DNA of 64,000 nucleotides from positions 1 through 64,000 of the forward strand of contig NZ_NUGT01000021.1 in NCBI RefSeq assembly GCF_002574545.1, given 5' to 3'. Below, in pieces: positions 5,539 to 50,566 of the stretch (position 1 is the stretch's first letter; each line of letters opens with the position of its first letter). The notes beneath the pieces were generated by a model, which searched no databases, was not told the origin of the DNA, and saw nothing but the letters and a program-made list of their open reading frames with translations. Source of the DNA: Bacillus sp. AFS055030. Lineage in GTDB: Bacteria; Bacillota; Bacilli; Bacillales; Bacillaceae_G. Made by a program: the position numbers and the translations under genes.

Positions 5539-5555
5539 AGAGATAGGAATTTTAG

Positions 5556-8697: not shown

Positions 8698-8703
8698 TAA
8701 ATG

Positions 8704-8747: not shown

Positions 8748-8814
8748 TCAAATAACTTAAAAAAGCATAAATTCTATTGGGTGTTTAAATGAGGATATGG
8801 GAGGCATTGTTAGC

Positions 8815-9537: not shown

Positions 9538-9779
9538 GAGTATTCGTTACATTAAGAGAAAGTGTTTTAGATCCACAAGGAAATGCTGTTAAAAACGCAC
9601 TTCACAGCATGAATTTTAGCGAAGTTCAAGATGTTCGTATCGGTAAATATATGGAATTATTAATTGATAAAAATGTTGCAGATTTAGATACAACTGTAAA
9701 AGAAATGTGTGAAAAGTTATTAGCAAACATCGTAATTGAAGATTACCGTTATGAGGTAGAGGAGGTAGTCGCACAGTGA
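9525..9779 (+). CDS. purS: FGAM synthase small subunit, PurS
   Basis: PurS is the small structural subunit that joins PurL and PurQ in the Bacillus-type three-part FGAM synthase. The 84-residue length, the [19 protein letters not shown] start and the VEEVVAQ end fit the family. It starts inside the end of purC behind a GGGGG site and overlaps the GTG start of purQ by four bases, which supports tight stoichiometric coupling. Confidence 0.96.
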
Positions 9780-10459
9780 AGTTTGCAGTAATTGTGTTCC
9801 CGGGCTCAAATTGTGATGTTGATATGTATCATGCAATCAAAGATGAGTTAGGCGAAGAAGTAGAATACGTATGGCATGATTCAACGAATTTAGATGAATT
9901 TGATGGTATCTTATTACCAGGTGGCTTCTCATATGGAGATTACTTACGCTCTGGCGCAATTGCAGGCTTTGCCAACGTGATGGATGCCGTGAAGAAAGCT
10001 GCTGCTGAAGGTAAACCAGTATTTGGCGTTTGTAACGGATTCCAAATTCTAACTGAAGCAGGTCTACTACCAGGTACTCTTAGACGTAATGAGAAATTAA
10101 AATTTATGTGTAAGCCTGTTGAGCTAGTTGTTGAAAACAATGAATCAATGTTTACAACTGGTTATGAAAAAGGTCAAGTAATAACAGTACCAATCGCACA
10201 TGGTGAAGGAAATTACTATTGCGATCAAGAAACATATGAAGCACTTAAAAGTAATAATCAGATAATTTTCCGTTATCAAAATAATCCAAATGGTAGTTTA
10301 GATGATATCGCAGGAATTGTTAATGAAAAAGGAAATGTATTAGGAATGATGCCACACCCTGAGCGTGCAGTTGATGCATTATTAGGCTCAGCAGACGGAC
10401 TTCAACTATTTCGTTCAATTGTAAGAAACTGGAGGGAAAACCATGTCGTTACTTCTTGA
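9776..10459 (+). CDS. purQ: FGAM synthase glutaminase subunit, PurQ
   Basis: PurQ releases ammonia from glutamine and passes it to PurL for conversion of FGAR to FGAM. The 227-residue class I amidotransferase has [12 protein letters not shown], the nucleophile elbow FGVCNGFQ with the catalytic Cys, and MPHPERA with the catalytic His. The start is GTG 9776 inside the purS stop region, preceded by GAGGTAG. Its end overlaps purL by 17 bases. Confidence 0.97.
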
Positions 10460-35965: not shown

Positions 35966-36883
35966 ATGAATAGATTGATAATTGGAATGGATGGCGGAGG
36001 AACGAAAACGAGAGTTCTGGTCAAAGAACGACTAGATGGAGAAACGTTATTTGATCAAAATTTTGGCATGTCAAATTATAACAACATCGGTGTAGAAGGG
36101 CTTATACCAGTATTTAGTGAAATATATGAATCGCTATTTTCATATTTTGGAGAGCGTTTACAAAATGCGATTCTTGTACTAGGTTCTGCAGGAGTAGATC
36201 GTCCTAAAGATATTGATATTTATTTAGATGCATTAAAAGAAAGTGGTTTTACTTGCCAGCTAGAAGTAGTAAATGATGCGGAAATTGCTCTTGTTGGTGG
36301 CAACGGAGAAAGAAAAGATGCTTTGATAATTGCCGGAACAGGTTCGATAGTTATGGGAGTAGATTCAAAAGGAAATACACTACGCTCAGGAGGATGGGGC
36401 GGATTAATAAGTGATGAGGGTGGAGGTTTCCAGATTGGTTTACATGCAATTGCTGCTGTTTTGAACGAGTATGACAAAGTGATTGCTCCTACATCTTTTA
36501 CCGAAAAATTGCTCGCTCATTTTAAGTTGAATTCTCCGGAAGATTTTATGGATTTATTATACATGGAAGATACAATTCCGGTAGATAAGGTAGCTTCTTG
36601 TACCCCAATCGTTTTAGATGCATGGGTAAAAGGTGATGAAGCTGCCCGTTCAATTGTTGAAGGTCAACTAGATAAGTTGGTTCGTTTAGTGATTGGAATT
36701 AGTAGACAAATGGGTTCAATTAATTTCCGCCTATCTGTGGCCGGAAGTTTGCTGACGAAATCAGCTGAGTATTTCGATGCATTAAAAGAAAAGTTAAGTG
36801 TGGCTTTACCTCAAGTTGAACTTTCTGCACCTCTTTATGATCCAGTTTTCGGTGCCATCATTATTGGCGAGAAATACAAGTAA
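35966..36883 (+). CDS. BadF/BadG-type amino-sugar kinase (GlcNAc/MurNAc kinase-like)
   Basis: The 305-residue protein is a sugar kinase of the ASKHA fold. It has the phosphate loop GMDGGGTKTRVLV near residue 6, VLGSAGVDRP, the conserved NDAEIALVGG, the adenosine motif IIAGTGSIVMG and SDEGGGFQIG. In this family NagK-like enzymes and the clostridial MurK phosphorylate GlcNAc and MurNAc at O-6. The neighbour at 36913 is MupG-like, which releases free amino sugar, so such a kinase would be the logical next step. GGGAGG at 35949-35954 precedes ATG 35966. It is the first gene of a four-gene operon. The exact sugar is inferred. Confidence 0.8.
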   Translation: MNRLIIGMDGGGTKTRVLVKERLDGETLFDQNFGMSNYNNIGVEGLIPVFSEIYESLFSYFGERLQNAILVLGSAGVDRPKDIDIYLDALKESGFTCQLEVVNDAEIALVGGNGERKDALIIAGTGSIVMGVDSKGNTLRSGGWGGLISDEGGGFQIGLHAIAAVLNEYDKVIAPTSFTEKLLAHFKLNSPEDFMDLLYMEDTIPVDKVASCTPIVLDAWVKGDEAARSIVEGQLDKLVRLVIGISRQMGSINFRLSVAGSLLTKSAEYFDALKEKLSVALPQVELSAPLYDPVFGAIIIGEKYK

Positions 36884-36912
36884 TTCAAAATAAAAATAGT
36901 AAGGAATGGCGA

Positions 36913-38046
36913 TTGAATATGCGTGAAATAGGAATTAGTGTGTATCCCAACTTTTATCCTTTAGATCAAATTAAAGATTATTTAGCAAAGGCTAGTTCAT
37001 TAGGTTTTAAAAAAGTATTTGTTTCGCTGATTTTAAATAATCATGGTTTCGAAGGTGCACTAAATGTAAATGCGGAAACTTGGAATGAATTATTTTGTTA
37101 CTGCAAAGAACTTAATATGACTGTGTCAGCTGATATGAATGATGAAGTTTTCAATGAGTTGGGTTGTACATTAACCGACCTTACAGTGTTACAAAATATG
37201 GGCATCACAAGACTCCGAATTGATGGAGGATTTACGAGTGAAGAAGTTGCACTTCTTTCAAAAAATAAACAAGGGATTCAAATAGAAGTAAATGCTTCAA
37301 TGTCCTCTTCTGATAATCAAAATGGAAACGCTTTACGGGAATGTCGCGAGTTTTTAGAAACAATAGAAAGAGAAGGAAATATTGAACAATTAACAGCTTG
37401 CCATAATTTTTTTCCTCTACCAGATACAGCACTGTCTTTAGAAGACTTACGCTCAATTAACAATCTGTTTGCTTTATTCGGTGTGCCAGTCGGAGGATTT
37501 GTCGCTTCGCAGCTTTCGCCAAAGGATTTACACCACTTAGGTCATGGAGTTTGTACAATTGAAAAACACCGTTTCTTGCCTAGCCATATTGCCATGCTAG
37601 AGTTATTTGCAAATGGTTTTAATGATGTATTAATTGGTGACTCATTTGCAGATTTTACAGAGCTCAAAGAAATGGCTAGATGCTACAAACAAGATTATAT
37701 AGAAATTCCAGTTGTTTTTAATCAATATGTACCAGAGCAAACAAAGTTGAAAATAAGCGAGCAGGTTCTTATTTCAAGAGTTGATCAGCCGGCAAATCTC
37801 ATTCGTGCAACTGATACTAGGGGAATGAAAGTACCTCATTGCTATTGTGCACCAAGAGAGAAATATACAGTTTCTATTTTAAATAATCGAAGTGCACAAT
37901 ATGAGGGAGAGGTACAAATTTCATTAAAAGATTTAGGACAATCCGTTGAACATAATGTCATTGGATTTGTTCATCCTTTTGCATACGATTTAATGCCGTA
38001 TCTTTTAGCCGGCAAAAATAAATTTCGATTAGTTGAATATAAGTAA
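36913..38046 (+). CDS. mupG: MupG-like 6-phospho-N-acetylmuramidase (DUF871)
   Basis: MupG-type enzymes split MurNAc-6-phosphate-GlcNAc inside the cell during peptidoglycan recycling. The 377-residue protein has the N-terminal TIM-barrel of this family (REIGISVYPNFYPLDQIKDYL, then MTVSADMND and LRIDGGF) and a C-terminal small beta domain starting near residue 260 (IEIPVVFNQYVPEQTK, then CAPREKYTVSILNNRS). The segment TACHNFFPLPDTALS (about residues 160-174) is a family hallmark. The start may be TTG 36913, seven bases from AAGGA, or ATG 36919. It lies 29 bases after the kinase gene. The substrate is taken from the characterised staphylococcal enzyme and could differ. Confidence 0.85.
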   Translation: MNMREIGISVYPNFYPLDQIKDYLAKASSLGFKKVFVSLILNNHGFEGALNVNAETWNELFCYCKELNMTVSADMNDEVFNELGCTLTDLTVLQNMGITRLRIDGGFTSEEVALLSKNKQGIQIEVNASMSSSDNQNGNALRECREFLETIEREGNIEQLTACHNFFPLPDTALSLEDLRSINNLFALFGVPVGGFVASQLSPKDLHHLGHGVCTIEKHRFLPSHIAMLELFANGFNDVLIGDSFADFTELKEMARCYKQDYIEIPVVFNQYVPEQTKLKISEQVLISRVDQPANLIRATDTRGMKVPHCYCAPREKYTVSILNNRSAQYEGEVQISLKDLGQSVEHNVIGFVHPFAYDLMPYLLAGKNKFRLVEYK

Positions 38047-38072
38047 AAAATTTATATAGTCGAGGTATCAGA

Positions 38073-39440
38073 ATGGTAAAAAGTGCAGTAATTCTTGCAG
38101 CAGGCAAAGGGAGTAAAATGAATCCTTTTAGCGCAGTTCGCTCCAAAACAGCAATAAAAATCGCTGGTAAGCCATTAATTCGTTATAATATTGAATCCAT
38201 TGTAGCAATGGGAATAGAAGACATTGTTGTTGTTGTTAATGAGGAACATCAAAGAGAAATTGAGAATCTTCTATTCGACATAAAGAATGTTAAATTTGTA
38301 GTAGATCAATCAAATATAGGAAGTGCGGAAAGTTTAGTAAAAGGGGTTGAGAAACTTTCAAGTACTGAGGAGTTTCTCGTTCTTTACGGCGATACGATTG
38401 TCGAACGAAAGGATCTGGAGCAATTAGCTAGTTCCAACAAACCTACCGTTTTGTTGAAAAAATTAGAAGAGTCGTCAAGGAATTGGATCGGCGCGAGTAT
38501 AAAGGATGGATTTGTTCTGTCAATTGGAGCGCACTACCGTGGCGACAGTATTACCCATCAATTCGCAGGATTTCTTTTTGATGAGTTATTACTGGAAGAA
38601 GTGAAAAGAACGCCTGATTATTTTCCGAATGTAAAAGTAGGAGTGGGTGCTCCGAAAGAACAATACATCGAAGCTGCACTTCTAATATCACTTGAGAAAA
38701 CAAAATTACAAGCGATTGAGTGTAATGGCCATTTCTTTGATATAGATAAGCCATGGCATATGTTAGAAGCGAATGAATATATGGTGAATCATTTTTGTAA
38801 TGCATTAAAAGAAAACGACCTAGCGGAAGGTGCAACAATTTCTGAAAATGCAACCATTCATGGTCACGTAAAGCTTGGTAAGAATTCCTCAATTGGTGAT
38901 CGAGTTGTCATTCACGGTAACCTAATTGTAGGTGATCATACAATTATTGATAATGGTGCGATTCTTAATGGAAATGCGGTTATTGGTGATCATACTGCCA
39001 TTCGTAATTATTGTATGATTTATGATGGAGTTTCAATTGGGTCGCATTGTATATTCGACCATTGTGCAGAGTTCCTTGGCGGAATGGTAATGGATAAGGT
39101 ATATCTTTACCACTATGGCGAGTTTTATGGTGCAATAGGCAGTTATACGGATATCGGTGCAGCAACGGTTTGTGGAACATTACGCTTTGATGATGGGGAA
39201 ACTGAGCACATTGTAAATGGACGGAAAGAAATACCTTTACATTTTTCAAATGCAGCGTATCTTGGTGATTATTGTAGAACTGGTGTGAACACGATTATTA
39301 TGCCTGGATGTAAAATAGGTGCTTATAGCGTGTTAGGAGCAGGTGCAATCATCGATAAAGATATTGAACAAAATAGTCTTGTTTTCGTAAAACAAGATCT
39401 CGTTATAAAAAAATGGAGTGAAAAGAAGTACGGTTGGTAA
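38073..39440 (+). CDS. GlmU-like sugar-phosphate nucleotidyltransferase with left-handed beta helix
   Basis: The 455-residue protein has an N-terminal nucleotidyltransferase fold (VILAAGKGSKMNPF, SNIGSAESL, LVLYGDT) and a C-terminal hexapeptide-repeat beta helix from about residue 250 (repeats such as ATISENATIHGHVKLGKNSS). The layout recalls GlmU or archaeal sugar-1-phosphate nucleotidyltransferase/acetyltransferase proteins. The signature G-x-G-T/S-R-M has Lys15 in place of the usual catalytic Arg, so activity may differ. A second, true glmU is not in this window. It sits between mupG and the SIS gene. It might activate the amino-sugar-1-phosphate, or serve a different step; substrate unknown. 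Confidence 0.75.
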   Translation: MVKSAVILAAGKGSKMNPFSAVRSKTAIKIAGKPLIRYNIESIVAMGIEDIVVVVNEEHQREIENLLFDIKNVKFVVDQSNIGSAESLVKGVEKLSSTEEFLVLYGDTIVERKDLEQLASSNKPTVLLKKLEESSRNWIGASIKDGFVLSIGAHYRGDSITHQFAGFLFDELLLEEVKRTPDYFPNVKVGVGAPKEQYIEAALLISLEKTKLQAIECNGHFFDIDKPWHMLEANEYMVNHFCNALKENDLAEGATISENATIHGHVKLGKNSSIGDRVVIHGNLIVGDHTIIDNGAILNGNAVIGDHTAIRNYCMIYDGVSIGSHCIFDHCAEFLGGMVMDKVYLYHYGEFYGAIGSYTDIGAATVCGTLRFDDGETEHIVNGRKEIPLHFSNAAYLGDYCRTGVNTIIMPGCKIGAYSVLGAGAIIDKDIEQNSLVFVKQDLVIKKWSEKKYGW

Positions 39441-39473
39441 TTTTATTAAATCAATTAAAGAAGGTATTCATTT

Positions 39474-40190
39474 ATGGAGAATTATTTTAAGTATGTAATG
39501 GCAAATCTCGAAAAACTATATACGACACAGAATCAAAAAATAGATGAAGCGGCAACTTGTATTTTTGAAGCCATTCAAAATGGTGGTCGCTTCCTTGTTA
39601 CAGGTTCGGGTCATTCACATATGTTTGCTGAAGAATTTTATGTAAGAGCGGGTGGATTTGCGGAGGTCTCACCAATTTTGCCGAATGAGTTTTTTTTACA
39701 TGACCATCCATTAAAAAGTACTGTGATCGAACGATTAGAGGCTTATGCAAAGGTAATTTTCGATTTATACAAAATAAGCTCAAAAGATATTCTTGTGATT
39801 GCTTCCAATTCAGGGAGAAATGGAATGACGGTTGAACTTGCAAAAATGACACAGGAATGCGGTGCAAAGGTAATTGCTTTTACAAATCCAAATCATCCAG
39901 AAGGTTCTAAATCAAGACATAGTAGCGGAAAATACCTTTGCGATTTTAGTGATGTAGTCATAGATAATTGTACCGGACCTGGAGATGCTTCCTTTTATGT
40001 AGAAGAAGCAAATACAGGGATGGGGGCAACTTCAACAATGGCTGGAGCCTTTGTTGCGCAATCAATTTCTATATTATTAGCAAAAAAATATCATCAAGCT
40101 GGATTAAAACCACCTGTTTTTAAAAGTTCTAATGTAGATGGTGGAGATGAGTGGAATAAAGAATTATTTGCAAAATACTATGGTGTTTAA
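39474..40190 (+). CDS. SIS-domain sugar-phosphate binding protein (UPF0309-like)
   Basis: The 238-residue protein has one SIS domain: GGRFLVTGSGHSHMFAEEFY near residue 37, LVIASNSGRNGMTVELA and a C-terminal TSTMAGAFVAQSISILLA helix. It resembles the UPF0309 family of uncharacterised sugar isomerase-like proteins. It is not MurQ, which is longer and has a different SIS signature. As the last gene of the kinase-mupG-nucleotidyltransferase operon it may act as isomerase, deaminase-like enzyme or etherase on the phosphorylated amino sugar. ATG 39474 follows AAGAAGGT. Confidence 0.8.
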   Translation: MENYFKYVMANLEKLYTTQNQKIDEAATCIFEAIQNGGRFLVTGSGHSHMFAEEFYVRAGGFAEVSPILPNEFFLHDHPLKSTVIERLEAYAKVIFDLYKISSKDILVIASNSGRNGMTVELAKMTQECGAKVIAFTNPNHPEGSKSRHSSGKYLCDFSDVVIDNCTGPGDASFYVEEANTGMGATSTMAGAFVAQSISILLAKKYHQAGLKPPVFKSSNVDGGDEWNKELFAKYYGV

Positions 40191-40308
40191 TTTATGCTTT
40201 TTAATGTTTCTCAAAATTTAACAAAAAAATAAGATTAATCGACTACCCTTTAAGATCTTTGAATTTAAGAATCAAAAGGTATGCTTTTAAAATTCACTGA
40301 TTCGTTTT

Positions 40309-40338
40309 TGCGTTCCCAGTTTATGGGTGCGCTTTTTC
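40309..40338 (+). terminator. Terminator of the kinase-mupG operon
   Basis: GCG and CCCA (40310-40318) pair with TGGG and GCGC (40324-40332) around a small internal loop, followed by five T residues. It lies about 120 bases after the SIS gene. Confidence 0.65.
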
Positions 40339-40420
40339 GCGTTTGACAGATTAAAGTGCTAACCACGTCTTACAGAATTTCTAATACATTGTTAAGAAAT
40401 GCTTAACTCAATAAAATGCG

Positions 40421-40467
40421 GAATCCCTTATTTTTAGTACTTTTGTTGTAAGATAAGGATTTTTTTT
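40421..40467 (+). terminator. Second terminator-like hairpin before the PRD regulator
   Basis: AATCC-CTTAT (40422-40431) pairs with ATAAGGATT (about 40453-40461) with one bulged base, and eight T residues follow. It insulates the regulator gene from the upstream operon. Confidence 0.75.
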
Positions 40468-40551
40468 GTATTCAAAAAAATAAAAACGAATGTTGTTAGT
40501 AAAATGTTCCTGTATTTTATAGCAGGTCTTAGGTCGTATTATAACATTGGA

Positions 40552-40599
40552 AGTTCGCATGACTTATGAACTAGGCTTATTTGTTTTAAATTGCGAACT
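40552..40599 (+). promoter_or_regulatory. Inverted repeat AGTTCGCA/TGCGAACT upstream of the PRD regulator
   Basis: AGTTCGCA (40552-40559) and TGCGAACT (40592-40599) are exact reverse complements 32 bases apart, about 90 bases before the regulator start. It could be a split operator for the PRD protein or a leader hairpin. The remaining intergenic bases between 40191 and 40687 hold the two terminators listed and no gene. Confidence 0.45.
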
Positions 40600-40687
40600 A
40601 TTTTGGAAAAATTCAAACTGTTAAATAGATTTACTGGAAAGTAAACTTAAAATACTAGATTAGGCATCTAGGGTGGTGAGGTAATAT

Positions 40688-42628
40688 ATGCGAAGAGATT
40701 TAATTTTGCAATTTTTGTATCAAAAAGGAAAATCACTAACTTCACAAGAGCTTGAATCAGAATTCGCTATTTCAAATCGTACATTACGAAATGAATTAAA
40801 AGAACTAAACGCGATTGGAGAAAAGTCCGGATTTGTGATTCAGAAAAAACGTGGTGAGGGCTATTTACTTCATATCGAAAACCAAGAGTTGGTTCAAACG
40901 TATATGAATGAAATAGATGGAGCATTGGCACCAGATTTACCCCGTGTTCGAGTGAATAATATTATTATGCTTTTACTTCAAACAACAGAGTTTCAAACGA
41001 TCGATATGTTTGCTGATAGTCTAATGATTAGCAGATCGACAGTTTTTACCGACATGATTGAAGTTGAAAAGCAAGTAAGGATTTTTGATTTAAAAGTAGA
41101 AACAAAATCACGCTATGGGGTTCGTTTACTTGGGGATGAAACGAATTTTAGAAGAGCGTTTTCCTACTTCCTAAGTCAAAAAGAAACAGGATTGTTAAAA
41201 AAATCAAATTATCAAACTTTTGAGAAAGCGTTTCCATTTGAGGAAATTCGAGCTGTTTTGAGTGAAGAAGTACAGAATAATCAACTGAAATTAAGTTATT
41301 TTGCACTTGAGAATATTTTATTGCACATCCAAGTACTCTCTTTTCGAGTAACTCAACACAACTTTATCTTGCCTAATCAAGAAAAAAAATTAGATGTTTC
41401 TCTAATCAAACCATCGTTTATGAATATAGCAAAGAGAATTTGTGAAATTCTTTCTGAACTATATCATGTCGTATTACCAGAAAGTGAAATTATCTATTTA
41501 GCTGCACATATAAGTGGTAAATCGAGTGTTGACGATATTGAGGAACATGAAAAAAATGACTTGAAGCAAAAACTAACGAATTGTTTGGAAAGATTAGATC
41601 AAACATTTTTAACTCAGTTTTCAGGTGATCAGCAACTTTTAAATACGATGATCATGCACATGTATCCATTGTTAAGAAGATTATATTTCAATTTAAAGCT
41701 TACGAATCCATTGATAAATGATGTATATAGTAGGTATTCAGACGTGTTTATGATTGCCTTAAATTTTTCTGAAATGATTAAGGAAATTTGGGGATTCGAA
41801 CTTTCTAGTGATGAAATGGGTTACATTACAATGCATTTAGCAGCTCACGTAGAAAGGGAGAAACAAAAACAACTAAGTTCCTACAAAAAAATTCTACTAT
41901 CGTACGGATTGGGAGCGGGATCGGCCGATTTAATGAAAATGAAACTTGAAGCACTTTTTCAAGGGGCAAAGATTGATGTCGTTCTGTACAGCGAGCTTCA
42001 GTTAATAAATCTTGAAGAATATGATTTATTAGTTTCATCGACTTCGATTCCATTTGATACGATTTCGATTCCGTATATTCAAGTAGCACCAATACTTACT
42101 GAAACGGATGTTCAAAGAATTCGACGTGCGCTTACTAGATACCCGGCTAATAAAGTTAAAGAAGATGTACCAACACTTTTATCTTTATTTCATACAGATT
42201 TGTTTTATATAGAAGAAAGCAAAGAGTTGTTTGACTACAAAGCCTTTATTAAAGAAAAGGCAAAAAGAGTGGTTGAACTAGGATTTGCACCACCTAACTA
42301 TCCTGATTTAGTTGTCGACCGTGAAGAAAAAATATCGACGATACTACAAAACGGAATTGCAGCGCCACATGCATTGAAAATGGTTGCGATCCAAGATTCA
42401 ATCAGTGTGGTGATCTTTAAAAACCCACCGATAATCGATGGAAAAGTTGTACAAATCCTATTTTTAATTAATCTTCGTGCCGGAGACTTGTTTTTACACA
42501 AAGAGTTAAGTCGATTATTTTTACACTTAATGGATTACCCCGAGACGAAGCAGAAAGTATTAAAATCAAACAATTTCAACGATTTTCAATATGAAATCTC
42601 TAAAATCTTGTTTCAGTATGGTTCGTAA
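40688..42628 (+). CDS. PRD-containing transcription regulator, LicR/ManR-type
   Basis: The 646-residue protein has two N-terminal helix-turn-helix parts (LTSQELESEFAISNRTLRNEL and a Mga-like region about 95-150) and two PTS regulation domains. PRD1 is around residues 190-300 with YLAAHISG; PRD2 is around 310-410 with YITMHLAAHVER. A degenerate EIIB-like region (about 410-490) and a C-terminal EIIA-like domain with the phospho-His motif GIAAPHA follow. Such proteins activate PTS operons when phosphorylated according to sugar supply. The EIIB-like loop reads SYGLGAGSADL and lacks the usual phosphorylated Cys. It likely controls the PTS operon downstream. GGTGAGG precedes ATG 40688. Confidence 0.9.
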   Translation: MRRDLILQFLYQKGKSLTSQELESEFAISNRTLRNELKELNAIGEKSGFVIQKKRGEGYLLHIENQELVQTYMNEIDGALAPDLPRVRVNNIIMLLLQTTEFQTIDMFADSLMISRSTVFTDMIEVEKQVRIFDLKVETKSRYGVRLLGDETNFRRAFSYFLSQKETGLLKKSNYQTFEKAFPFEEIRAVLSEEVQNNQLKLSYFALENILLHIQVLSFRVTQHNFILPNQEKKLDVSLIKPSFMNIAKRICEILSELYHVVLPESEIIYLAAHISGKSSVDDIEEHEKNDLKQKLTNCLERLDQTFLTQFSGDQQLLNTMIMHMYPLLRRLYFNLKLTNPLINDVYSRYSDVFMIALNFSEMIKEIWGFELSSDEMGYITMHLAAHVEREKQKQLSSYKKILLSYGLGAGSADLMKMKLEALFQGAKIDVVLYSELQLINLEEYDLLVSSTSIPFDTISIPYIQVAPILTETDVQRIRRALTRYPANKVKEDVPTLLSLFHTDLFYIEESKELFDYKAFIKEKAKRVVELGFAPPNYPDLVVDREEKISTILQNGIAAPHALKMVAIQDSISVVIFKNPPIIDGKVVQILFLINLRAGDLFLHKELSRLFLHLMDYPETKQKVLKSNNFNDFQYEISKILFQYGS

Positions 42629-42726
42629 TGAAGTAGCGATCATTCTAAAAAAATCAACCTAGTGGGATGGTCGCAATCATATGCGAATCAACATTCATAT
42701 TATCATTTGGCTTTTGTAGATAATGT

Positions 42727-42740
42727 TGAAAACGGTTACT
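42727..42740 (+). promoter_or_regulatory. Catabolite-responsive element (cre) upstream of the secreted protein
   Basis: The 14 bases TGAAAACGGTTACT match the CcpA consensus TGWAANCGNTNWCA at 13 of 14 positions. The site lies 40 bases before the start of the secreted-protein/PTS operon, which suggests carbon catabolite control. Confidence 0.65.
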
Positions 42741-42780
42741 CACAAAAAATAATAAAATAAATTATTTCGGAGGAAGATTA

Positions 42781-45700
42781 ATGAAAAGAAATAAATGGTT
42801 TTTGGGTAGAGCTTTACCAGCATCAGTATTAGTAGCTTCAATGTTTGCAGGTAGTTTTAATAGTGTAGTAGTTAAAGCTGCTCCTACTGTTTCAACTCAA
42901 TCTACTGTAGCTCCAATTTCAACCGGAACTAAGATTTATATGACAACGACAGAGATCACTCATGCAAAACCAGCTAATTTAGATACAACAAAGCCAGTAA
43001 AATGGACAACATCTGATCCATATGTTGCATATGTTGATATGATTGGAAACGCGAAAGGAGATTATAGCGGAAAAATTTTAGGGATATCTGGTGGTACGGC
43101 AAGAATCACTGGTACCGGAGTAGATACGAATGGTAATGCAACAACTGTGAATATTACTGTTACTGTAAGTGAGACACAGTCATCTACTAATCTTGAAAAA
43201 GTTGTTTACTATTATAACGCTGGGGATTCAAATATTCCAGCAGCACTAAAAGATTCAAAATGGGAAACAACAAATATTCCTACCGCACCATCAGGAGCTA
43301 AATTCCCATCTAAGAACTATGTTGGCTACGTTAATGGAGAAAATGACGTAAAATGGTTGATTTCTAAAGATACTTTAATCAAGTCAAACGATAAAATTAT
43401 TCTTGGTGACGAAAAACCTCATGGCGTAATTACTGGTATCGTATCGGATGCAATTACACTTTACGATCCAAACTTAGCACCAGCAGATCAAATTCAGTAT
43501 CTACAAGGTGGAAGATATATTCCTCAAACTGGTGGATCTTCAGGTTCTGGTACTAATAATTCAGGTGCAGCTGCAACTTATAACGCCAAAGAAGTGATTA
43601 CAAACATTATGCCAGATGGAAATAATGGACTTTGGGTTCTAGGTGAAAAAGGTAATGCAACGCATATCGTTAGAAAACAAATGTCGCTAATGGGTAAATC
43701 GTTATTACAAACCGAGGTTTCTAGAAACTACACGGATCGATTTGGATTCCAATCTGGGAATATGAGATTCAATTCACAAGCGGATATGATTAAAGCGCTT
43801 ATGACTGCTGATAAAGATGCAGGCAGAGGCAACTACGATACAGATAATGATGGTCTTTGGACGACAATGTATGCTTCTGGAGAAATCTGGAGATACAACT
43901 ACATGAAAGAAAACTTTGGAGAATCTGATGCTAGAACAAAAGACGCAAAAGCATCTGCTATTCGTGCAGTTGAATCAATCGTAACGCTTGGTTATGTATC
44001 TGGTACCCAATTAAAAGTTACATCTAAAAACAATGTAAATGACTATGTGTATGTTGTTAACTCTTATGGTGGAAACGTATCAACAATCGAAGAAGCAAAA
44101 GCATGGCTAGCTGAAAACGAAGGGAAGCCAGTTTATGTTGATGAAAACGGTAAGTATACATTAGATCACACAAAAAAACCTGCTGCATCTGGTTTCTTTG
44201 CAAGGTCATATAAAGTTAACACAAGTAACAATGGTGCAACAACTCCAGAAGCTGAAACTTGGGATAATGCATGGATAAAAAAGAAGGTTGGACAAACAAC
44301 AGATATAAATGGAAAAACAGTTTACTACAATGTCGCAGGAGCTTTCAAAAATGGAACTAATCCTGCTCTTAAAGCTTATGACACAGTTGCTGTACCTCCA
44401 CGTTTAACAAATATATTTGCAAGCCAAAATGAAGGTTTAGATGCTGATACAAAAGCTTTAGACTCAAATAAAGTCGTTTACAAAGCAACAACTTCTACTG
44501 ATGAATTAGTAGGTCATTATTTTACGCTTGATTTAGCATATAAAGCGTTCAAAGATGAAGATCCAGAACTAGCAGCGTTAATCAAAAATAATATGATTAA
44601 CCATACAAATGCATTAATTCTAAATAACTATTTCCAATTGACTGTAAATGGCGAGAATCCAACTGAATCTCGTTTTGATGAGGGAACGATTCGTGGAAAT
44701 GGATTAAATGTTCCAAATGCTCCAACTAGATGGGCAAATTTGAATCCGGAATACCTTGATGGTAATAAAGATGCATGGGGAAGAGACGCAGACTATGAAG
44801 ATGGTCCATTAAATGCACAATTACTTTTACAAGCACTTGCAGTCGCAAAAGATTTTGGCGGGTATACATCTAAAGAAAAAGAACTCCTTAAAGCTCAGGG
44901 CATAGATGTTGTTGAACCACTAGATTTTGCAAACGAATACAAAGTAATGAATGGCCAAAAGGCTACAAAAAAAGCTAATGAACACAATGATTTTGAAGTA
45001 AGATACCCAAAAACACACAACTCGAAATCGATGCTTGATATGTCATTGCAATATCTTGCAAGATACTTTGGTATTGCTGCTCATAACGGAGATGATATTG
45101 GTGTTAGCGGTGTAACTCATGAATCATACATGAACTATTCTGACGAAGAAGAAGAAGCACTAGCTTATTACACATTATCTCACCATGCTGATCAGTTTAA
45201 CGGAGACGAAATCTTAGAAGGTATGAATCAATGGTGGACAAATGAAAAGAGAGAGAAAAACCCATTTATGACAACTTTCTATGCAGCTTCTCTAGGTGCA
45301 TTGAAAGCTAAAGGGATTGATATCGGAAATGCACAAGTTGACCTTGCTGGTTCAGAGTGGCAAATGTCTCGCATCCCTAACAATTTCATGAACTTTGATG
45401 TATTATCAGCAAACAGAAATGACGTAACACATGTAGCGCCGAATCTTATGGTTGATCAATTAATTCCACGTGATGAAGTTATGATGTCTAAGTACAACAC
45501 GAATATTTTCGGAACGATGGATCGTAGAACGATTGACTCTGGTAACAGTTTAACAATGGAATCTTCAACTGTAATCTCAATGCCATACTGGATCACTCAA
45601 AATCCTGAGGATGTTGCTTATGTAGAAAAGTTAGGTTCAAAAGTGACTAAACCTGTAAATAAAGGTACAGAAAGCTTAAGTTATCCAACGAACATTGCAA

Positions 45701-46407
45701 AGATGAATCCTCATGCGAAATATAATGAAGACACACATACATTTACGATTAATGTTGGTGAATCGGTTAGACTTGATGCAAAAACAACTGGCTATACTCG
45801 AAATGTGTCTTGGGCAACGGATGCTTGGGATCAAGCAGGATACAAAAATGGATTACCATCACAAATCAATGCCAAACCAGATGTATCACAAGTGATTGAC
45901 CTAAGAAATATAGCAACTTATGGTGATGAAGGTAATGTAAAACCAACCGACTTAAGTGTAAATGGCGAGTACTATGGGGCATACGCAACAGGCTTAAAAC
46001 CAGGAACTTGTACGGTATCGGCATATGTTATTGATGGTTTCTTTAGAACACCGAAAAAAATCACTTATACAATCAATGTTGTTGATCCGATGAAATCAAC
46101 TGGTAAAATTGCTCCTACAAAGTTGGACAAGAACTCTTTTGCATATCCAAGCTGGTTAAAAAATGCAATGGCTGAAAAAGGATTAAATACAGATGGAAAC
46201 AAATTTATAGAAGTTAGTTACGAATCATCATCTCCAGACGATGTAGCTGTTGATGCGGATGGAAAAGTAACATATAAAACAAATAAATCAGCTACTATCA
46301 CTGCGACGGTTGTATACTCTGCAATGACATTGAATGGAGATCCACAATTTGCAAATGATAGTCACGTGATGACGTTTGTACGCACAGTATCTAAGGATGC
46401 TAAATAA
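42781..46407 (+). CDS. Large secreted protein of unknown enzymatic type in a PTS operon
   Basis: The 1208-residue protein has a signal peptide ending near VVVKA-A (about residue 33). A BIG2/Ig-like domain follows (about 45-130, WTTSDPYVAYVDMIG and TVNITVTV). Then comes a propeller-like stretch ending in GNNGLWVLGEKGNATHIVRK (about 280-300). The central part (about 300-880) is helix-rich and contains TDNDGLWTTMYASGEIWRY, SGFFARSY and several Trp/Tyr-rich segments. It reminds me of an (alpha/alpha) barrel as found in secreted glycosidases and lyases, but I cannot assign a family. The tail (about 950-1208) is all-beta with another Ig-like repeat. No wall anchor or SLH was seen. Its position between a PRD regulator and PTS genes suggests that it processes the glycan whose fragments the PTS imports. 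CGGAGGA precedes the ATG. Confidence 0.75.
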   Translation: MKRNKWFLGRALPASVLVASMFAGSFNSVVVKAAPTVSTQSTVAPISTGTKIYMTTTEITHAKPANLDTTKPVKWTTSDPYVAYVDMIGNAKGDYSGKILGISGGTARITGTGVDTNGNATTVNITVTVSETQSSTNLEKVVYYYNAGDSNIPAALKDSKWETTNIPTAPSGAKFPSKNYVGYVNGENDVKWLISKDTLIKSNDKIILGDEKPHGVITGIVSDAITLYDPNLAPADQIQYLQGGRYIPQTGGSSGSGTNNSGAAATYNAKEVITNIMPDGNNGLWVLGEKGNATHIVRKQMSLMGKSLLQTEVSRNYTDRFGFQSGNMRFNSQADMIKALMTADKDAGRGNYDTDNDGLWTTMYASGEIWRYNYMKENFGESDARTKDAKASAIRAVESIVTLGYVSGTQLKVTSKNNVNDYVYVVNSYGGNVSTIEEAKAWLAENEGKPVYVDENGKYTLDHTKKPAASGFFARSYKVNTSNNGATTPEAETWDNAWIKKKVGQTTDINGKTVYYNVAGAFKNGTNPALKAYDTVAVPPRLTNIFASQNEGLDADTKALDSNKVVYKATTSTDELVGHYFTLDLAYKAFKDEDPELAALIKNNMINHTNALILNNYFQLTVNGENPTESRFDEGTIRGNGLNVPNAPTRWANLNPEYLDGNKDAWGRDADYEDGPLNAQLLLQALAVAKDFGGYTSKEKELLKAQGIDVVEPLDFANEYKVMNGQKATKKANEHNDFEVRYPKTHNSKSMLDMSLQYLARYFGIAAHNGDDIGVSGVTHESYMNYSDEEEEALAYYTLSHHADQFNGDEILEGMNQWWTNEKREKNPFMTTFYAASLGALKAKGIDIGNAQVDLAGSEWQMSRIPNNFMNFDVLSANRNDVTHVAPNLMVDQLIPRDEVMMSKYNTNIFGTMDRRTIDSGNSLTMESSTVISMPYWITQNPEDVAYVEKLGSKVTKPVNKGTESLSYPTNIAKMNPHAKYNEDTHTFTINVGESVRLDAKTTGYTRNVSWATDAWDQAGYKNGLPSQINAKPDVSQVIDLRNIATYGDEGNVKPTDLSVNGEYYGAYATGLKPGTCTVSAYVIDGFFRTPKKITYTINVVDPMKSTGKIAPTKLDKNSFAYPSWLKNAMAEKGLNTDGNKFIEVSYESSSPDDVAVDADGKVTYKTNKSATITATVVYSAMTLNGDPQFANDSHVMTFVRTVSKDAK

Positions 46408-46468
46408 AAGTATCTGTTATTAAATTCAAACATTAAAGATTATTTACTAAAAGAAATAAATTCTAAAA

Positions 46469-46508
46469 GGATCTTGGTATATGGGAAATTCATGATTTAC
46501 CAAGATCC
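46469..46508 (+). other. 11-bp perfect hairpin between the secreted protein and EIIC genes
   Basis: GGATCTTGGTA (46469-46479) and TACCAAGATCC (46498-46508) are exact complements around an 18-nt loop. No U tract follows and the EIIC gene starts 26 bases later. It may be a processing or stabilising element allowing different levels of the two products. Confidence 0.55.
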
Positions 46509-46534
46509 GAATTCCTTAGAGAGGGGATAACGAA

Positions 46535-47839
46535 ATGAACAGTAAATTTTTTGAAAAAAAATTCTTACCGATCGCTTCGAAAATAGGTAATCAAAGACAC
46601 TTACTTGCTTTGCGTGACGGTATTATGTTTGCCATGCCACTAATGATCATTGGTTCATTTTTCATTATCGTAGCTTGGTTAGAAGCAGAGTGGTACCAAA
46701 ACTTTATGTCAAAAGTGTTTGGCGAAAATTGGAATGCTTTTGGAGATATCGTTTATAACGGTTCAATGGGGATTATCGCTTTAGTTGCAGTATTTGGCGT
46801 AGCTTATTCCTTAGCAAGTAGTTATAAGGTCGACAAAAAGAATATTGATGGAGTTCCAGCTGGAGTATTAGCATTAGCAAGTTATTTAATTGTTAATATT
46901 ATGAGCACTTTCAAAGATGGTAAGGAAACTGTATCTGCATGGTCACCTGATCTATTTGGTGCACAATACTTGTTTGTTGGATTAATCATTGCCATTATTA
47001 CTGCTGAAATATATCGTTACTTCTTACAAAAGAAGATCATCATTACGTTACCAGATACTGTACCGCCAACAGTTTCACGTTCATTTACGGCGCTTATTCC
47101 TGGTTTTGTGATTATCCTTTTCTTCTTACTAGTTCGATACGGATTTAGTCATACTGGATGGGGAGATTTTGCAACGTTTGTTCATAAAGTTGTAACACAA
47201 CCATTTACAATTTTAGGTTCAACTTATATTGGTACACTTGTCGCTTGTTTAATGGAACATCTTTTATGGAGCTTTGGGATCCACGGTTCTTCGATTATCA
47301 CATCTGTTATGGAACCAATTTGGATTACAAATGCTGATGCGAACTTGGCAGCAGTTAAAGCAGGTAAAGAATTACCACATATTATTACGTATACATTCTA
47401 TGAGAATGGGATCTGGATGGGTGGATCTGGAGCTACTTTACCAGTAGCAATCTATATGACATTTTTAGCGAAGTCAAAACTTCTTAAGAAGGTAGGACGT
47501 CTAGCGATTGGACCATCGATCTTTAACGTAAATGAGCCAATTATGTTTGGTGTTCCAATTGTTTTAAATCCATTTTTAATGATTCCTTATATTCTAGCGC
47601 CAGTAGCAGTGTTAACAGTGACTTACTTTGGTACGGCAATGGGAATATTCCCACATACGACTGGAACGATTATCCCGTGGACAACCCCATATTTCATAAG
47701 TGGTTATTTAATGACGGGTGGTAAGATTATGGGTGTAGTCATGCAATTAGTAGCTTTTGCAGTGGCTTCGGCAATTTGGTTCCCATTCATTAGAATGTGG
47801 GATAAGAAAAATTTAGAATTAGAGAATACTAGTAAATAA
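46535..47839 (+). CDS. PTS EIIC, Lac family (cellobiose/diacetylchitobiose type)
   Basis: The 434-residue integral membrane protein is the sugar-translocating subunit of a phosphotransferase system. It opens with the cytosolic FFEKKFLPIASKIGNQRHLLALRDGIMFAMPLMIIGS pattern typical of CelB/ChbC (quoted here in part: GNQRHLLALRDG). It has about ten hydrophobic segments, the LLWSFGIHGSSII region and NVNEPIMFGVPIVLNP near the sugar site. GAGAGGGG precedes ATG 46535. Its EIIB and EIIA partners are separate genes downstream. The family transports beta-linked disaccharides such as cellobiose or chitobiose; the actual sugar is unknown. Confidence 0.92.
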   Translation: MNSKFFEKKFLPIASKIGNQRHLLALRDGIMFAMPLMIIGSFFIIVAWLEAEWYQNFMSKVFGENWNAFGDIVYNGSMGIIALVAVFGVAYSLASSYKVDKKNIDGVPAGVLALASYLIVNIMSTFKDGKETVSAWSPDLFGAQYLFVGLIIAIITAEIYRYFLQKKIIITLPDTVPPTVSRSFTALIPGFVIILFFLLVRYGFSHTGWGDFATFVHKVVTQPFTILGSTYIGTLVACLMEHLLWSFGIHGSSIITSVMEPIWITNADANLAAVKAGKELPHIITYTFYENGIWMGGSGATLPVAIYMTFLAKSKLLKKVGRLAIGPSIFNVNEPIMFGVPIVLNPFLMIPYILAPVAVLTVTYFGTAMGIFPHTTGTIIPWTTPYFISGYLMTGGKIMGVVMQLVAFAVASAIWFPFIRMWDKKNLELENTSK

Positions 47840-47888
47840 TTCGACAGCAATTAAATGGATAATTGATTAGAAGAAGGGACTAAAACTT

Positions 47889-48404
47889 ATGGAAAATCGA
47901 CAAAAAATACTAACTTCGTTTCGATTAAAAAGAATCGGTGCCTTTGCCATTGATGCAATAATTGTTTCAATCATCTTGTCAATTGTGTATCGAATCACGG
48001 GACTTCCAAACTTTCCAGGGGTCTTAGCAAATATGATTGAGCTTCAAAAATCAACTGCTAGTCAAGATGCAACTGTAAAGGTAATGGCTCTTTTTAATGA
48101 AGCATTTCTACAATCGCTTATCATCTATTTTTGTTATGAAGTTGCTACAACTCTATTATTGAGAGGGTCAACAATTGGAAAGATGATCTTTCGATTAAAA
48201 TTAACACGCATTAATAACAATAAGGGAAAGCTTCCTTATATATTTCTAGTGATTGTTAGAAGTTTCTTTAAATTTTTGACGATGTTTATTTTTCAAGGTA
48301 TCCCTTTCTTCTTATCCGTTATTAGCATGTTTGCTAATCAAAAATCATTGGCTGTACACGATCGAATTGGTCGATTTGTCGTTATGAATAAAAAGGAAGC
48401 ATAA
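47889..48404 (+). CDS. RDD family membrane protein
   Basis: The 171-residue protein carries the RDD signature: RLKRIGAFAIDAIIVSIILS near the start (R and D of the motif), a central TTLLLRGSTIGKMIFRLKL segment and the final AVHDRIGRFVVM. Three to four hydrophobic segments are visible. RDD proteins are small membrane proteins; some are linked to ion transport, but most are uncharacterised. It sits between EIIC and EIIB, 49 bases after EIIC, in an otherwise standard PTS operon, so a role as accessory or stabiliser of this transporter is an inference. Confidence 0.85.
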   Translation: MENRQKILTSFRLKRIGAFAIDAIIVSIILSIVYRITGLPNFPGVLANMIELQKSTASQDATVKVMALFNEAFLQSLIIYFCYEVATTLLLRGSTIGKMIFRLKLTRINNNKGKLPYIFLVIVRSFFKFLTMFIFQGIPFFLSVISMFANQKSLAVHDRIGRFVVMNKKEA

Positions 48405-48432
48405 AAACTTACTAAAGAAAGAGGAAATCATC

Positions 48433-48741
48433 ATGAATATCTTACTTTGCTGTGCTGCAGGCATGTCAACAAGTCTAATCGTTTCTAAAATGGAAAAAGT
48501 TGCGGAATCAAAAGGTATTTCAGCACGTATATGGGCAGTTTCTGAATCAGTTGTTCGCTCAGAAATCGAAGAAGCTGATGTGTTATTGTTAGGTCCACAA
48601 GTACGTTTCCTTTTAGAAGAAATGGAAGAAATCTGTGAAGAGAAAAACATTCCAGTTGAAGTAATTAATATGATGAATTATGGCATGTGCGATGGTGAAG
48701 CGATTTTAGAGCAAGCGATCAGTTTAATTGAAAATAAGTAG
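48433..48741 (+). CDS. PTS EIIB, Lac family
   Basis: The 102-residue cytosolic subunit takes the phosphate from EIIA and passes it to the sugar during transport. The N-terminus MNILLCCAAGMSTSLIV holds the phosphorylated cysteine, probably Cys7, and the VLLLGPQVRFLLEEM segment is typical of CelA/ChbB. GAGG lies before ATG 48433. Unlike the chb operon order, here EIIC comes first. Confidence 0.93.
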   Translation: MNILLCCAAGMSTSLIVSKMEKVAESKGISARIWAVSESVVRSEIEEADVLLLGPQVRFLLEEMEEICEEKNIPVEVINMMNYGMCDGEAILEQAISLIENK

Positions 48742-48887
48742 TAACTGTCAAAGAATTGACTCTTTTCAATCTTTGCCCAAGAAAAATATGATAAATACCT
48801 TAAAGGTTTATACATTTTAAAATTAATAACCGTGGGAATATGACGATAAAAAAATTTTATGAATAAAAAAGAGAGGAGGTCAGTTTT

Positions 48888-49199
48888 ATGGTAAAAAATG
48901 AAACAGAAATTTTCACACTGATCCTTCACGGTGGAAATGGTCGAAGTGCTGCAATGGAAGCGATTCAAGCAGCAAAAAAACAAGACTTCGATTTGGCTCG
49001 CAAGAAATTGAAAGAATCAGGTGATGCTTTAAATGAGGCACATCATATTCAAACAACACTTATTCAGTCAGAGATCGGTGGTACTCCAACTGAGATTTCA
49101 CTTTTAATGATCCATGCCCAAGATCACTTAATGAATGCAATGACTGTAAAAGACTTGGCAAAAGAGTTCGTTGACATGTATGAAAGGGGCCTAAAGTAA
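48888..49199 (+). CDS. PTS EIIA, Lac family
   Basis: The 103-residue helical subunit receives phosphate from HPr. The conserved [11 protein letters not shown] motif near residue 76 contains the phosphorylated histidine, and [15 protein letters not shown] at the start and the [13 protein letters not shown] region complete the three-helix pattern. GAGAGGAGG lies eight bases before the ATG, a very strong site. Its stop TAA shares a base with the ATG of the GH4 gene. About 145 bases without a gene separate it from EIIB. Confidence 0.93.
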
Positions 49200-50515
49200 T
49201 GTCAAAGAAATTTAAAATCGTTACAATAGGTGGAGGCTCAAGTTATACGCCAGAATTGGTTGAGGGAATCATTAAGCGCTATGAACAAATCCCAGTAACT
49301 GAGCTGTGGCTTGTTGATGTCGAAGCTGGACGAGAAAAATTAGAAACAGTTGGTGCACTAGCAAAGCGTATGGTCAAAAAAGCTGGAGTACCAATGGAAA
49401 TTCATCTTTCGTATGATCGCCGTGAGGCCTTAAGGGATGCTGATTTTGTTACAACACAGCTTCGTGTTGGACAACTAGCTGCACGTGCACTTGATGAAAG
49501 AATTCCGCTAAAACATGGCGTAATCGGACAAGAAACAAATGGTGCAGGTGGATTGTTTAAAGCCTTACGTACAATTCCAGTTATTTTGGATATTTGTAAA
49601 GAAGTGGAAGAGCTATGTCCAAATGCTTGGATTCTTAACTTTACAAACCCTGCCGGAATGGTAACAGAGGCAGCATTAAGATATTCAAATATTAAGAGAT
49701 TTATTGGTCTTTGCAATATACCGATTGGAATGGAAATGGGTGTTGCAAAACTATTAAATGTAGATCATTCACGTGTACGTATTGATTTTGCAGGTTTAAA
49801 TCATATGGTATATGGTATAGAGGTTTATTTAGATGGAGTTAGTGTAAAAGAACAAGTACTTGAAATGATTATGGATCCTGCGAATGCTAGTTTTGTAAAA
49901 AATATAGATGCTGAAGAATGGGCACCTGAATTCTTAAAAGCAGTCAATGTCATTCCTTGTTCATATCATCATTACTATTACAAAACATCGGAAATGCTTG
50001 AAAGAGCATTAAAGGATTTTGAATCGAATGAAACGCGTGCAGAAGTCGTGCAAAAAATTGAAGCTTCTCTTTTTGAAAAATATAAAGATGAAGCGCTAGA
50101 TATAAAACCACCTGAATTAGAAAAACGCGGTGGAGCTTACTATTCTGATGCGGCTTGTCGTTTAATTTCATCAATTTATAATGATACGAGAGATATCCAA
50201 CCATTAAATACAATGAACAAGGGAGCAATCTCGGGCTTACCGTATGACGGGGCAGTAGAAGTTAGCTGTGTTATTACAAAAGATGGTCCTATTCCACTAA
50301 CAATCGGGGAATTACCAGTGCCAGTTCGAGGATTAATTCAAACGATTAAATCTTTCGAACAGACAGCAATCGAGGCTGCTGTAGAAGGAAGTCGTGAAAA
50401 AGCAATTCTTGCCTTAACGATTAACCCGCTTGTAGCTAACGATAAAGTAGCTGTAGCCATCGTTGATGAAATGCTAGAAGCGCATAAAGAATATTTACCG
50501 AGATTTTATAAATAG
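49199..50515 (+). CDS. 6-phospho-beta-glucosidase, GH4 family
   Basis: This 438-residue NAD- and metal-dependent glycosidase hydrolyses phosphorylated disaccharides through an oxidation-elimination mechanism. It has the NAD loop VTIGGGSSYTPELVEG near residue 7. The metal-binding residues are Cys172 (GLCNIPIGM) and His202 (GLNHMVYG), and GQETNGAGGLFKALRTIP is typical of LicH/CelF/ChbF. The one-base overlap with EIIA couples it to the transporter, so its substrate should be the PTS product, for example cellobiose-6-phosphate or chitobiose-6-phosphate. Which of these, or a less common sugar, cannot be told from sequence. Confidence 0.92.
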   Translation: MSKKFKIVTIGGGSSYTPELVEGIIKRYEQIPVTELWLVDVEAGREKLETVGALAKRMVKKAGVPMEIHLSYDRREALRDADFVTTQLRVGQLAARALDERIPLKHGVIGQETNGAGGLFKALRTIPVILDICKEVEELCPNAWILNFTNPAGMVTEAALRYSNIKRFIGLCNIPIGMEMGVAKLLNVDHSRVRIDFAGLNHMVYGIEVYLDGVSVKEQVLEMIMDPANASFVKNIDAEEWAPEFLKAVNVIPCSYHHYYYKTSEMLERALKDFESNETRAEVVQKIEASLFEKYKDEALDIKPPELEKRGGAYYSDAACRLISSIYNDTRDIQPLNTMNKGAISGLPYDGAVEVSCVITKDGPIPLTIGELPVPVRGLIQTIKSFEQTAIEAAVEGSREKAILALTINPLVANDKVAVAIVDEMLEAHKEYLPRFYK

Positions 50516-50526
50516 GAAATATGTTT

Positions 50527-50566
50527 ACGGCAGCAAATCCTTTAGGATGCTGCCTTTTATATTTTT
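50527..50566 (+). terminator. Terminator of the PTS-GH4 operon
   Basis: GGCAGC (50529-50534) pairs with GCTGCC (50549-50554); an inner ATCC/GGAT stem closes a TTTA loop, and a T-rich tract follows. Confidence 0.9.

Follow-up and report, generated by a model that had tools for sequence, protein, structure and literature searches.

An Eleven-Gene Locus and Its Conservation

The DNA analyzed here is a 64,000-nucleotide stretch (the window) of contig NZ_NUGT01000021.1 of Bacillus sp. AFS055030, and its subject is a run of eleven intact open reading frames, all on the + strand, at positions 35966–50515. In order, these encode a sugar kinase, the 6-phospho-glycosidase MupG, a nucleotidyltransferase (NTP), a SIS-domain protein (SIS), a PRD-type transcription activator, a large secreted protein (BIG), the IIC component of a phosphotransferase system (PTS), an RDD-family membrane protein, the PTS components IIB and IIA, and a GH4 glycosidase. 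Gene families were called by Pfam and NCBIfam profile matches; L and G numbers label loci and genomes, respectively, G000 being the genome of the window. All genes named by an earlier note on this DNA are present as intact reading frames at the expected place, and all match the family given there except BIG; the run, described in that note as a nine-gene neighborhood ending at 50566, comprises eleven genes and closes with the GH4 stop at 50515, 51 bases earlier. Given the sizes of the intergenic gaps (29, 26, 33, 497, 152, 127, 49, 28, 146, and −1 bases, in order), the run is probably transcribed as more than one unit. The G+C content is 35.5% in the run and 35.0% elsewhere in the window, and recent import was rejected on the basis of this composition.

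The eleven genes form, with high confidence, one conserved cassette. BIG loci were located by an exact short-peptide scan of genome contigs, which recovers close relatives, and in 13 of the 15 distinct loci fetched the complete set of eleven genes is present, with order and strand unchanged; the closest BIG-encoding loci with names belong to Gottfriedia and Bacillus sp. records, and the genome of the window is by this measure of Gottfriedia type. The RDD gene lies inside the PTS operon in 13/13 other full cassettes. The flanks vary between loci: trmA/dus is upstream in six (L019, L022, L023, L024, L027, L030), an SDR-like gene (by eye) is downstream in L021, L025, and L031, nagB follows GH4 after about 95 bases in L026 (TIGR00502, 310 bits), and the downstream genes of L020 and L028 differ again. 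In the 19 genomes of the family, BIG and NTP are both present in 12 and both missing from the other 7, a concordance of 19/19. The proposal of the earlier note that the two operons belong together is borne out by this shared order and concordance, and the contrary case, that the operons never co-occur, was examined and not encountered, 13 of the 15 loci holding both.

The two remaining loci, L029 and L032, are from Paenibacillus. Each carries BIG together with an oppositely oriented relative of NTP (47% and 45%), less than 7 kb away, with BIG behind SLH domains (a profile match in L032, by eye in L029) and with ABC-transporter and oxidoreductase genes nearby (by eye; the L029 oxidoreductase has under-cut-off model matches); no PTS match and no SIS match was found near BIG in these two loci. 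In wider searches, BIG was detected at E 1e-8 in 2 of 398 Bacilli genomes (its own and G314) and in 1 of 378 genomes of a phylum sample (its own), whereas 5 of the 398 Bacilli genomes gave an NTP match (E 1e-60) and 53 gave a SIS match (E 1e-30; 59 places). The plasmid collection gave no BIG match; phages were not searched. The distant genome G314 holds a BIG-like protein with GH4, a BadF kinase, and ABC importer genes, the importer being assigned partly by eye and its binding protein scoring under its cut-off. In G028, MupG, NTP, and SIS are consecutive on one contig and a IIB-IIC-IIA-GH4 set, whose GH4 is 79% identical to that of the window, lies on another; no BIG match was listed at E 1e-8 for this genome, which is 84% complete. 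The two halves can thus separate, and the cassette may therefore have arisen when two older modules fused.

Directly 3′ of the cassette (51115–55563) lies a gene for a very large S8 subtilase with a PA domain, an Fn3-like domain, and eight choline-binding-type repeats. It was excluded from the cassette because it is matched near full-length in only 5 of the 15 loci (L018, L019, L022, L024, L030). Partial matches of 26–35% were found in L021, L025, and L031, and none was listed at the remaining loci, in a comparison that listed only matches covering >30% of the query.

Sugar Enzymes of the Cassette and a Recurrent MupG-PTS-GH4 Cluster

The kinase (35966–36883, 305 amino acids [aa]) belongs to the BadF/NagK family (PF01869, 92 bits) and scores 83 bits against the NagK model NF046058, far under its cut-off of 370. 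Its best solved relative, 8zo3 (161 bits), is named N-acetylmuramic acid/N-acetylglucosamine kinase. GGWGG follows AGTGS in the sequence. Kinases that accept N-acetylmuramic acid (MurNAc) have been described as carrying small residues close to its lactyl group (PMC10465942), and comparison by eye with that description places GGWGG at the lactyl-contact position, in a protein that scores under the NagK-model cut-off.

MupG (36913–38046, 377 aa) is a GH170-type 6-phospho-glycosidase over the Pfam cut-off in both domains (PF19200, 188 bits, cut-off 24; PF05913, 50 bits, cut-off 24.4), with 1x7f as its best solved relative (125 bits); its listed start is TTG, and an ATG lies two codons further. 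The GH4 enzyme (49199–50515, 438 aa) is over cut-off in its N and C domains (PF02056, 243 bits; PF11975, 205 bits) and matches two solved 6-phospho-beta-glucosidases, 1s6y (666 bits) and 5c3m (665 bits). It carries CNIP at residue 172 and LNH at residue 200, which we take to represent the CN(I/V)P motif and Cys/His metal site of GH4 enzymes. GH4 chemistry is NAD-dependent, proceeds by oxidation at C3, and needs a free C3 hydroxyl. The C3 of MurNAc carries a lactyl ether, so GH4 should not act on phosphorylated MurNAc. Because GH4 needs the free hydroxyl and MupG works without a need for NAD, the two enzymes would be complementary. The NAD independence of MupG is taken from PMC6262408.

NTP (38073–39440, 455 aa) is a GlmU-like sugar-1-phosphate nucleotidyltransferase with a left-handed beta-helix domain, its best solved relatives being 2ggo and 5z09. 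It lacks both marks of the GlmU type, scoring 183 bits against the curated model TIGR03992 (cut-off 292) and having, as do 9/9 aligned relatives, Lys at the Arg position of the classical GxGTRM motif. We assume Arg to be the usual residue in GxGT(R)M nucleotidyltransferases. A copy on an Enterococcus faecalis plasmid has lost further nucleotide-site residues, and because of this loss catalysis appears doubtful in some members.

SIS (39474–40190, 238 aa) is of the UPF0309/NagS type (NF002805, 270 bits, cut-off 135), and among solved structures it is closest to 3cvj and 9eol (SCO4393/NagS). NagS is the N-acetylglucosamine (GlcNAc)-6-phosphate dehydratase of Streptomyces (PMC12680351). At the nine mutated NagS side chains (H53, S54, R64, S91, E94, S119, S121, D179, N228), SIS is identical in eight, with S91 replaced by T, in a distant alignment of 126 bits; the four that are essential in NagS (H53, R64, E94, D179; PMC12680351) are all kept. 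The same source describes homologues at 25.7–35.7% identity, from three genera, without NagS activity, and relates the SIS family to MurQ (PMC12680351). An identity of SIS as MurQ was rejected, as SIS is missing at E 0.001 from the matches to the MurQ model TIGR00274 in a search whose positive control was seen in 12 of 14 genomes; in the genome of the window, this model is over cut-off only at contigs C77 and C8, which hold two MurQ genes outside the cassette.

Leaving aside the cassette and G028, SIS was listed at 57 places, of which eleven were examined (L035, L036, L038–L040, L043–L048). nagA and/or nagB lies close to the SIS relative in five (L036, L039, L043, L045, L046), accompanied by a GlcNAc-type PTS in L043 and L045, and the gene order in L036 is NTP-SIS-nagA; in the other six, no nagA/nagB was seen by eye in open reading frame lists without a model scan. 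NTP adjoins SIS in four of the five NTP-bearing genomes (G000, G028, G298, G364), and the two are on different contigs in the fifth (G192). On the Enterococcus faecalis plasmid LR962301 (L058), SIS, GntR-like, and NTP genes (6367–9353) stand between transposase-like genes (by eye), and the SIS-NTP pair may be mobile. Genes at 10499–13036 of L058 resemble a bacitracin-resistance set.

MupG was found at E 1e-20 at 31 places in 25 of 190 Bacilli genomes, GH4 at E 1e-120 in 53 of 190, and the two lie within 15 kb of each other at 10 of the 31 places, the window included. The nine other loci (L057, L060–L067), examined by tblastn at E 1e-5, hold IIB and IIC in 9/9, IIA in 8/9, a BadF kinase in 7/9, and MurQ in 5/9 (L057 and L061–L064, of which L062–L064 come from one genus); tblastn gave no BIG match in any of the nine. 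The combination of MupG, GH4, and a lactose/cellobiose PTS thus recurs as a tool set, joined in most cases by a BadF kinase and in many by MurQ. SIS and NTP occupy the position in the cassette that MurQ holds in the recurrent cluster. Among the papers listed in a literature search for MupG with GH4 and MurQ, MupG and GH4 terms appear together in PMC6262408 alone; among the matches listed for UPF0309/SIS, only PMC12680351 was on point, and none was on point, by title and abstract, for Gottfriedia with peptidoglycan.

The genome of the window carries one of these loci, L057 (G000:C8:32000-51000, 3097–11067), where an RpiR-type regulator gene stands in one run with those for MupG, IIB, IIC, GH4, IIA, a BadF kinase, and MurQ. 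Its MupG and kinase are each 28% identical to those of the window, its IIC 37%, and its GH4 66%. In small, midpoint-rooted trees (16 GH4, 11 MupG, 11 IIC, and 8 kinase sequences, with 2 to 4 of 14 cassettes in each), the GH4 of the window falls among plain lic-type GH4s (0.96–1.0 support), apart from the MurQ-linked ones, and the window MupG forms a clade of its own with those of L026 and G028, apart from the MurQ-linked MupGs. The window kinase groups with the G314 kinase (0.95), and the window IIC falls apart from the lic-type and MurQ-linked types, which group together (1.0). These placements suggest that the cassette was assembled separately from the MurQ-linked cluster.

BIG, Sugar Import, and Regulation

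BIG (42781–46407, 1208 aa) has a signal peptide, recognized by eye, Ig-like ends, and a largely helical core. No Pfam or NCBIfam family is over cut-off, with a weak Big_2 match only; Pfam gave neither a chitinase nor a peptidoglycan-hydrolase domain, and comparison of the sequence with solved structures gave no convincing relative (a single row at E 0.59 was left unused). In fold, the core weakly resembles (alpha/alpha)6 enzymes of GH9 type, in match lists that also hold unrelated proteins; a GH9-like identity is not claimed. Because SLH domains are found on the BIG of L032 and on the neighbor of the G314 BIG-like protein, an extracellular site is predicted for BIG.

The tail of BIG is variable (window 46380–46540): the window protein ends at 1208 aa, and those of L018, L019, L020, L022, L026, and L028 continue for about 160–310 aa, the L018 extension holding repeat and Fn3 domains. 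A shorter BIG relative of 855 aa is encoded elsewhere in the same genome (L042, G000:C16, 9510–12637), beside a secreted-looking protein of 181 aa that resembles, by eye, the C-terminal part of the G314 SLH protein.

IIC (46535–47839, 434 aa; lactose/cellobiose family) passes the cellobiose model TIGR00359 (458 bits, cut-off 434) and fails the diacetylchitobiose IIC model PRK10297 (222 bits versus a cut-off of 760). Its closest solved relative is 3qnq (403 bits), which we take to be the diacetylchitobiose transporter ChbC of Bacillus cereus; as the sole solved relative at that threshold, 3qnq does not fix the specificity of IIC. The RDD protein (47889–48404, 171 aa; PF06271, 57 bits) precedes IIB (48433–48741, 102 aa; PF02302, 84 bits) and IIA (48888–49199, 103 aa; PF02255, 128 bits), both of the lactose/cellobiose family.

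The MtlR/LicR-type activator (40688–42628, 646 aa) contains HTH, Mga-like, two PRD, and EIIA domains (PF08279, PF05043, PF00874 ×2, PF00359) and covers most of the MtlR/LicR plan of PMC10864463, an EIIB-type domain not being reported by Pfam. A conserved noncoding block 5′ of its gene (40588–40660), seen by eye in 11 aligned loci, is a candidate operator or promoter. Upstream of BIG, a cre-like site for catabolite repression (42726–42740) matches a cre consensus exactly. The window holds 4 cre matches versus 1.42 expected, a number reached by 4 of 100 shuffles, and a relaxed cre motif occurs 5′ of BIG in 8 of 14 loci.

After SIS, a terminator-like hairpin (GCGTTCCCA...TGGGTGCGC, then TTTTT; 40310–40332) has a similar form, by eye, in 11 aligned loci and was not listed by the consensus terminator scan; it likely ends the first operon. 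The promoter scan gave 66 matches versus 62.0 in shuffles and the terminator scan 6 versus 7.4; because the former shows no excess, and the latter likewise none, no promoter is claimed. Between BIG and IIC lies a hairpin without a T-run (46469–46508) that, judged by eye, is almost unchanged in 10 of 11 loci; no covariation is claimed for it because only one of ten pairs has changed on both sides. It is possibly an element of mRNA processing, stability, or differential expression. No known RNA was accepted in the locus; two snoRNA rows far below the gathering score were taken as chance.

A Proposed Glycan-Utilization Pathway and Its Relation to Known Systems

The explanation that we favor, and regard as probable, is that the eleven genes make up one glycan-utilization cassette for a beta-linked, amino-sugar-containing extracellular glycan. 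Our confidence in an amino-sugar-containing beta-glycan as the substrate is moderate; the amino sugar is indicated by the kinase relative 8zo3, by the SIS relatives near nagA/nagB, and by nagB after the L026 cassette. From the genes, their families, their order, and the conservation of the block, we infer a path in which BIG would be exported and would depolymerize, or help to depolymerize, the glycan, and the IIC-IIB-IIA PTS of cellobiose/diacetylchitobiose type would import a disaccharide and phosphorylate it at C6. GH4 would split those phospho-disaccharides in which the phosphorylated sugar has a free C3 hydroxyl, and MupG those in which it is of MurNAc or GlcNAc type; the BadF/NagK-type kinase would phosphorylate the released free amino sugar, and SIS and NTP would process the amino-sugar phosphate toward NagA/NagB or the nucleotide-sugar pool. 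The PRD activator would sense PTS phosphorylation, and CcpA would repress the second operon via the cre site. The parts of the cassette fit the path from outside glycan to phosphorylated monosaccharide that had been put forward for this DNA. The genomes and loci counted are relatives of one another, and some appear from their identity and spacing to be the same strain (L018, L019, and L020, and G006, G015, and G010, for example), so that their counts are not independent events.

We judge it unlikely that the locus instead recycles products of peptidoglycan turnover, with MurNAc-GlcNAc set free by secreted enzymes or autolysis, the PTS importing it, MupG yielding MurNAc-6-phosphate and GlcNAc, the kinase acting on GlcNAc, and SIS replacing MurQ. 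Staphylococcus aureus MupG does perform such a cleavage, with MurP (PMC6262408), the same tool set accompanies MurQ elsewhere (MurR, MurQ, IIB, IIC, GH4, IIA, MupG, BadF kinase; MurQ in five of nine loci), and the SIS family is related to MurQ (PMC12680351). However, the cassette has no MurQ, and of the two MurQ genes elsewhere in the genome, one has its own MupG, PTS, GH4, and kinase; SIS was not listed by TIGR00274 at E 0.001, the regulator is a PRD activator rather than MurR/RpiR, a small tree places the window MupG and the MupGs linked to MurQ in separate clades, and Pfam finds no peptidoglycan-hydrolase domain on BIG. The MurNAc-type recycling role given to the first genes by the earlier note is accordingly not upheld, the cassette having no MurQ and its SIS being of the UPF0309/NagS type.

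A chitin-type system appears quite unlikely. Here, BIG or another enzyme would release N,N′-diacetylchitobiose, IIC would import it, the GH170 enzyme would split the phosphorylated disaccharide as ChbE presumably does, and the kinase and nag enzymes would finish the path, a scheme that agrees with the pairing of a cellobiose-type PTS with ChbE in the chb cluster of Lacticaseibacillus paracasei, with 3qnq (taken above to be ChbC) as the nearest solved relative of IIC, and with nagB behind one cassette (L026). BIG, however, shows no chitinase domain in Pfam, and IIC is over the cellobiose cut-off and far below that of PRK10297 (222 versus 760 bits), with 3qnq, its sole solved relative at threshold, leaving the specificity unfixed; GH4 groups with lic-type enzymes, and NTP has no evident need in such a scheme. 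It is very unlikely that the two operons are functionally separate neighbors, one of them a lic/cel operon for beta-glucosides that includes a secreted glucanase, the other an amino-sugar salvage operon making a nucleotide sugar. Although the terminator-like hairpin and the 497-base gap separate them, the PRD gene and the cre site are both on the second-operon side, and G028 carries the two sets on separate contigs with no BIG match listed, the eleven genes stay together in 13 of the 15 loci despite varying flanks, BIG and NTP are concordant, with NTP near BIG also in the Paenibacillus loci, which gave no PTS match, and a BIG-like protein, GH4, and a BadF kinase occur together in G314.

A more far-reaching version can be offered only tentatively: that BIG founds a new family of secreted glycosidases or lyases, that the cassette is a dedicated pathway for a hetero-disaccharide glycan so far unrecognized as a bacterial nutrient, and that SIS and NTP constitute an uncharacterized amino-sugar-phosphate route replacing MurQ or NagA/NagB. 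If so, GH4 and MupG would split the two possible phospho-disaccharides, and the SIS-NTP pair, whose genes are neighbors in G028, G298, and G364 and close on the Enterococcus plasmid, would be a general module. The cassette bears on the roles of GH170 and UPF0309 SIS proteins beyond Staphylococcus and Streptomyces and on the target of BIG, a secreted protein without a family. Because MupG pairs with GH4 and a cellobiose-type PTS (at 10 of 31 MupG places), the data suggest that some Bacilli operons now annotated as cellobiose/6-phospho-beta-glucosidase operons serve wall or chitin sugars. With a conserved cassette and a clear import step, the substrate of the favored utilization path should be findable by growth and metabolite assays.

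The MurP PTS of S. aureus is of the glucose type. The mupG-murQ-murP-murR operon of this organism (PMC6262408) resembles the cassette in that a disaccharide is imported by a PTS and its 6-phosphate is cleaved intracellularly by a GH170 enzyme; it differs in having IIB and IIC domains in one protein, MurP, and in the presence of MurQ and MurR, whereas the cassette has a lactose/cellobiose-type PTS, GH4, a kinase, SIS and NTP, a PRD activator, and BIG. The chb cluster of L. paracasei (PMC12791066) likewise serves an amino-sugar disaccharide by pairing cellobiose-type IIC, IIA, and IIB with a GH170 enzyme, ChbE, which is presumed to split the phosphorylated form. Its gene list, as given in the abstract, names no GH4, SIS, NTP, or secreted protein and encodes no kinase, and it includes ChbD (DUF3284) and a regulator of its own (PMC12791066). 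NagS of Streptomyces (PMC12680351) shares with SIS the protein family and eight of the nine mutated side chains, although at a distance at which other homologues are inactive.

In the second operon, a LicR-type PRD activator is found with IIB, IIC, IIA, and GH4 nearby, the BIG and RDD genes intervening. Gene details of licBCAH are in part general background. The licBCAH/licR and cel operons (PMC10864463) have in common with the cassette a PRD-type activator, IIB, IIC, IIA, a 6-phospho-beta-glucosidase, and catabolite control, and differ from it in lacking MupG, the kinase, SIS, NTP, and BIG and in the RDD gene inserted in the cassette. A separate IIB-IIC-IIA-GH4 set in the genome of the window encodes a GH4 with 71% identity to that of the cassette; the window IIC is only 43–44% identical to the lic-type IICs examined (L059, L068). 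The recurrent MupG-PTS-GH4 cluster of Bacilli comes with proteins of the same kinds (MupG, GH4, lactose/cellobiose PTS, and BadF kinase), but in other protein subfamilies and with MurQ in five of nine loci where the cassette has SIS and NTP. The earlier claim that the locus matches no known set thus holds in part: its second operon is lic/cel-like, and the MupG-PTS-GH4 cluster recurs, once in this very genome, yet the cassette as a whole is a PTS-plus-phospho-glycosidase utilization locus of new composition that includes one secreted protein without an assigned family.

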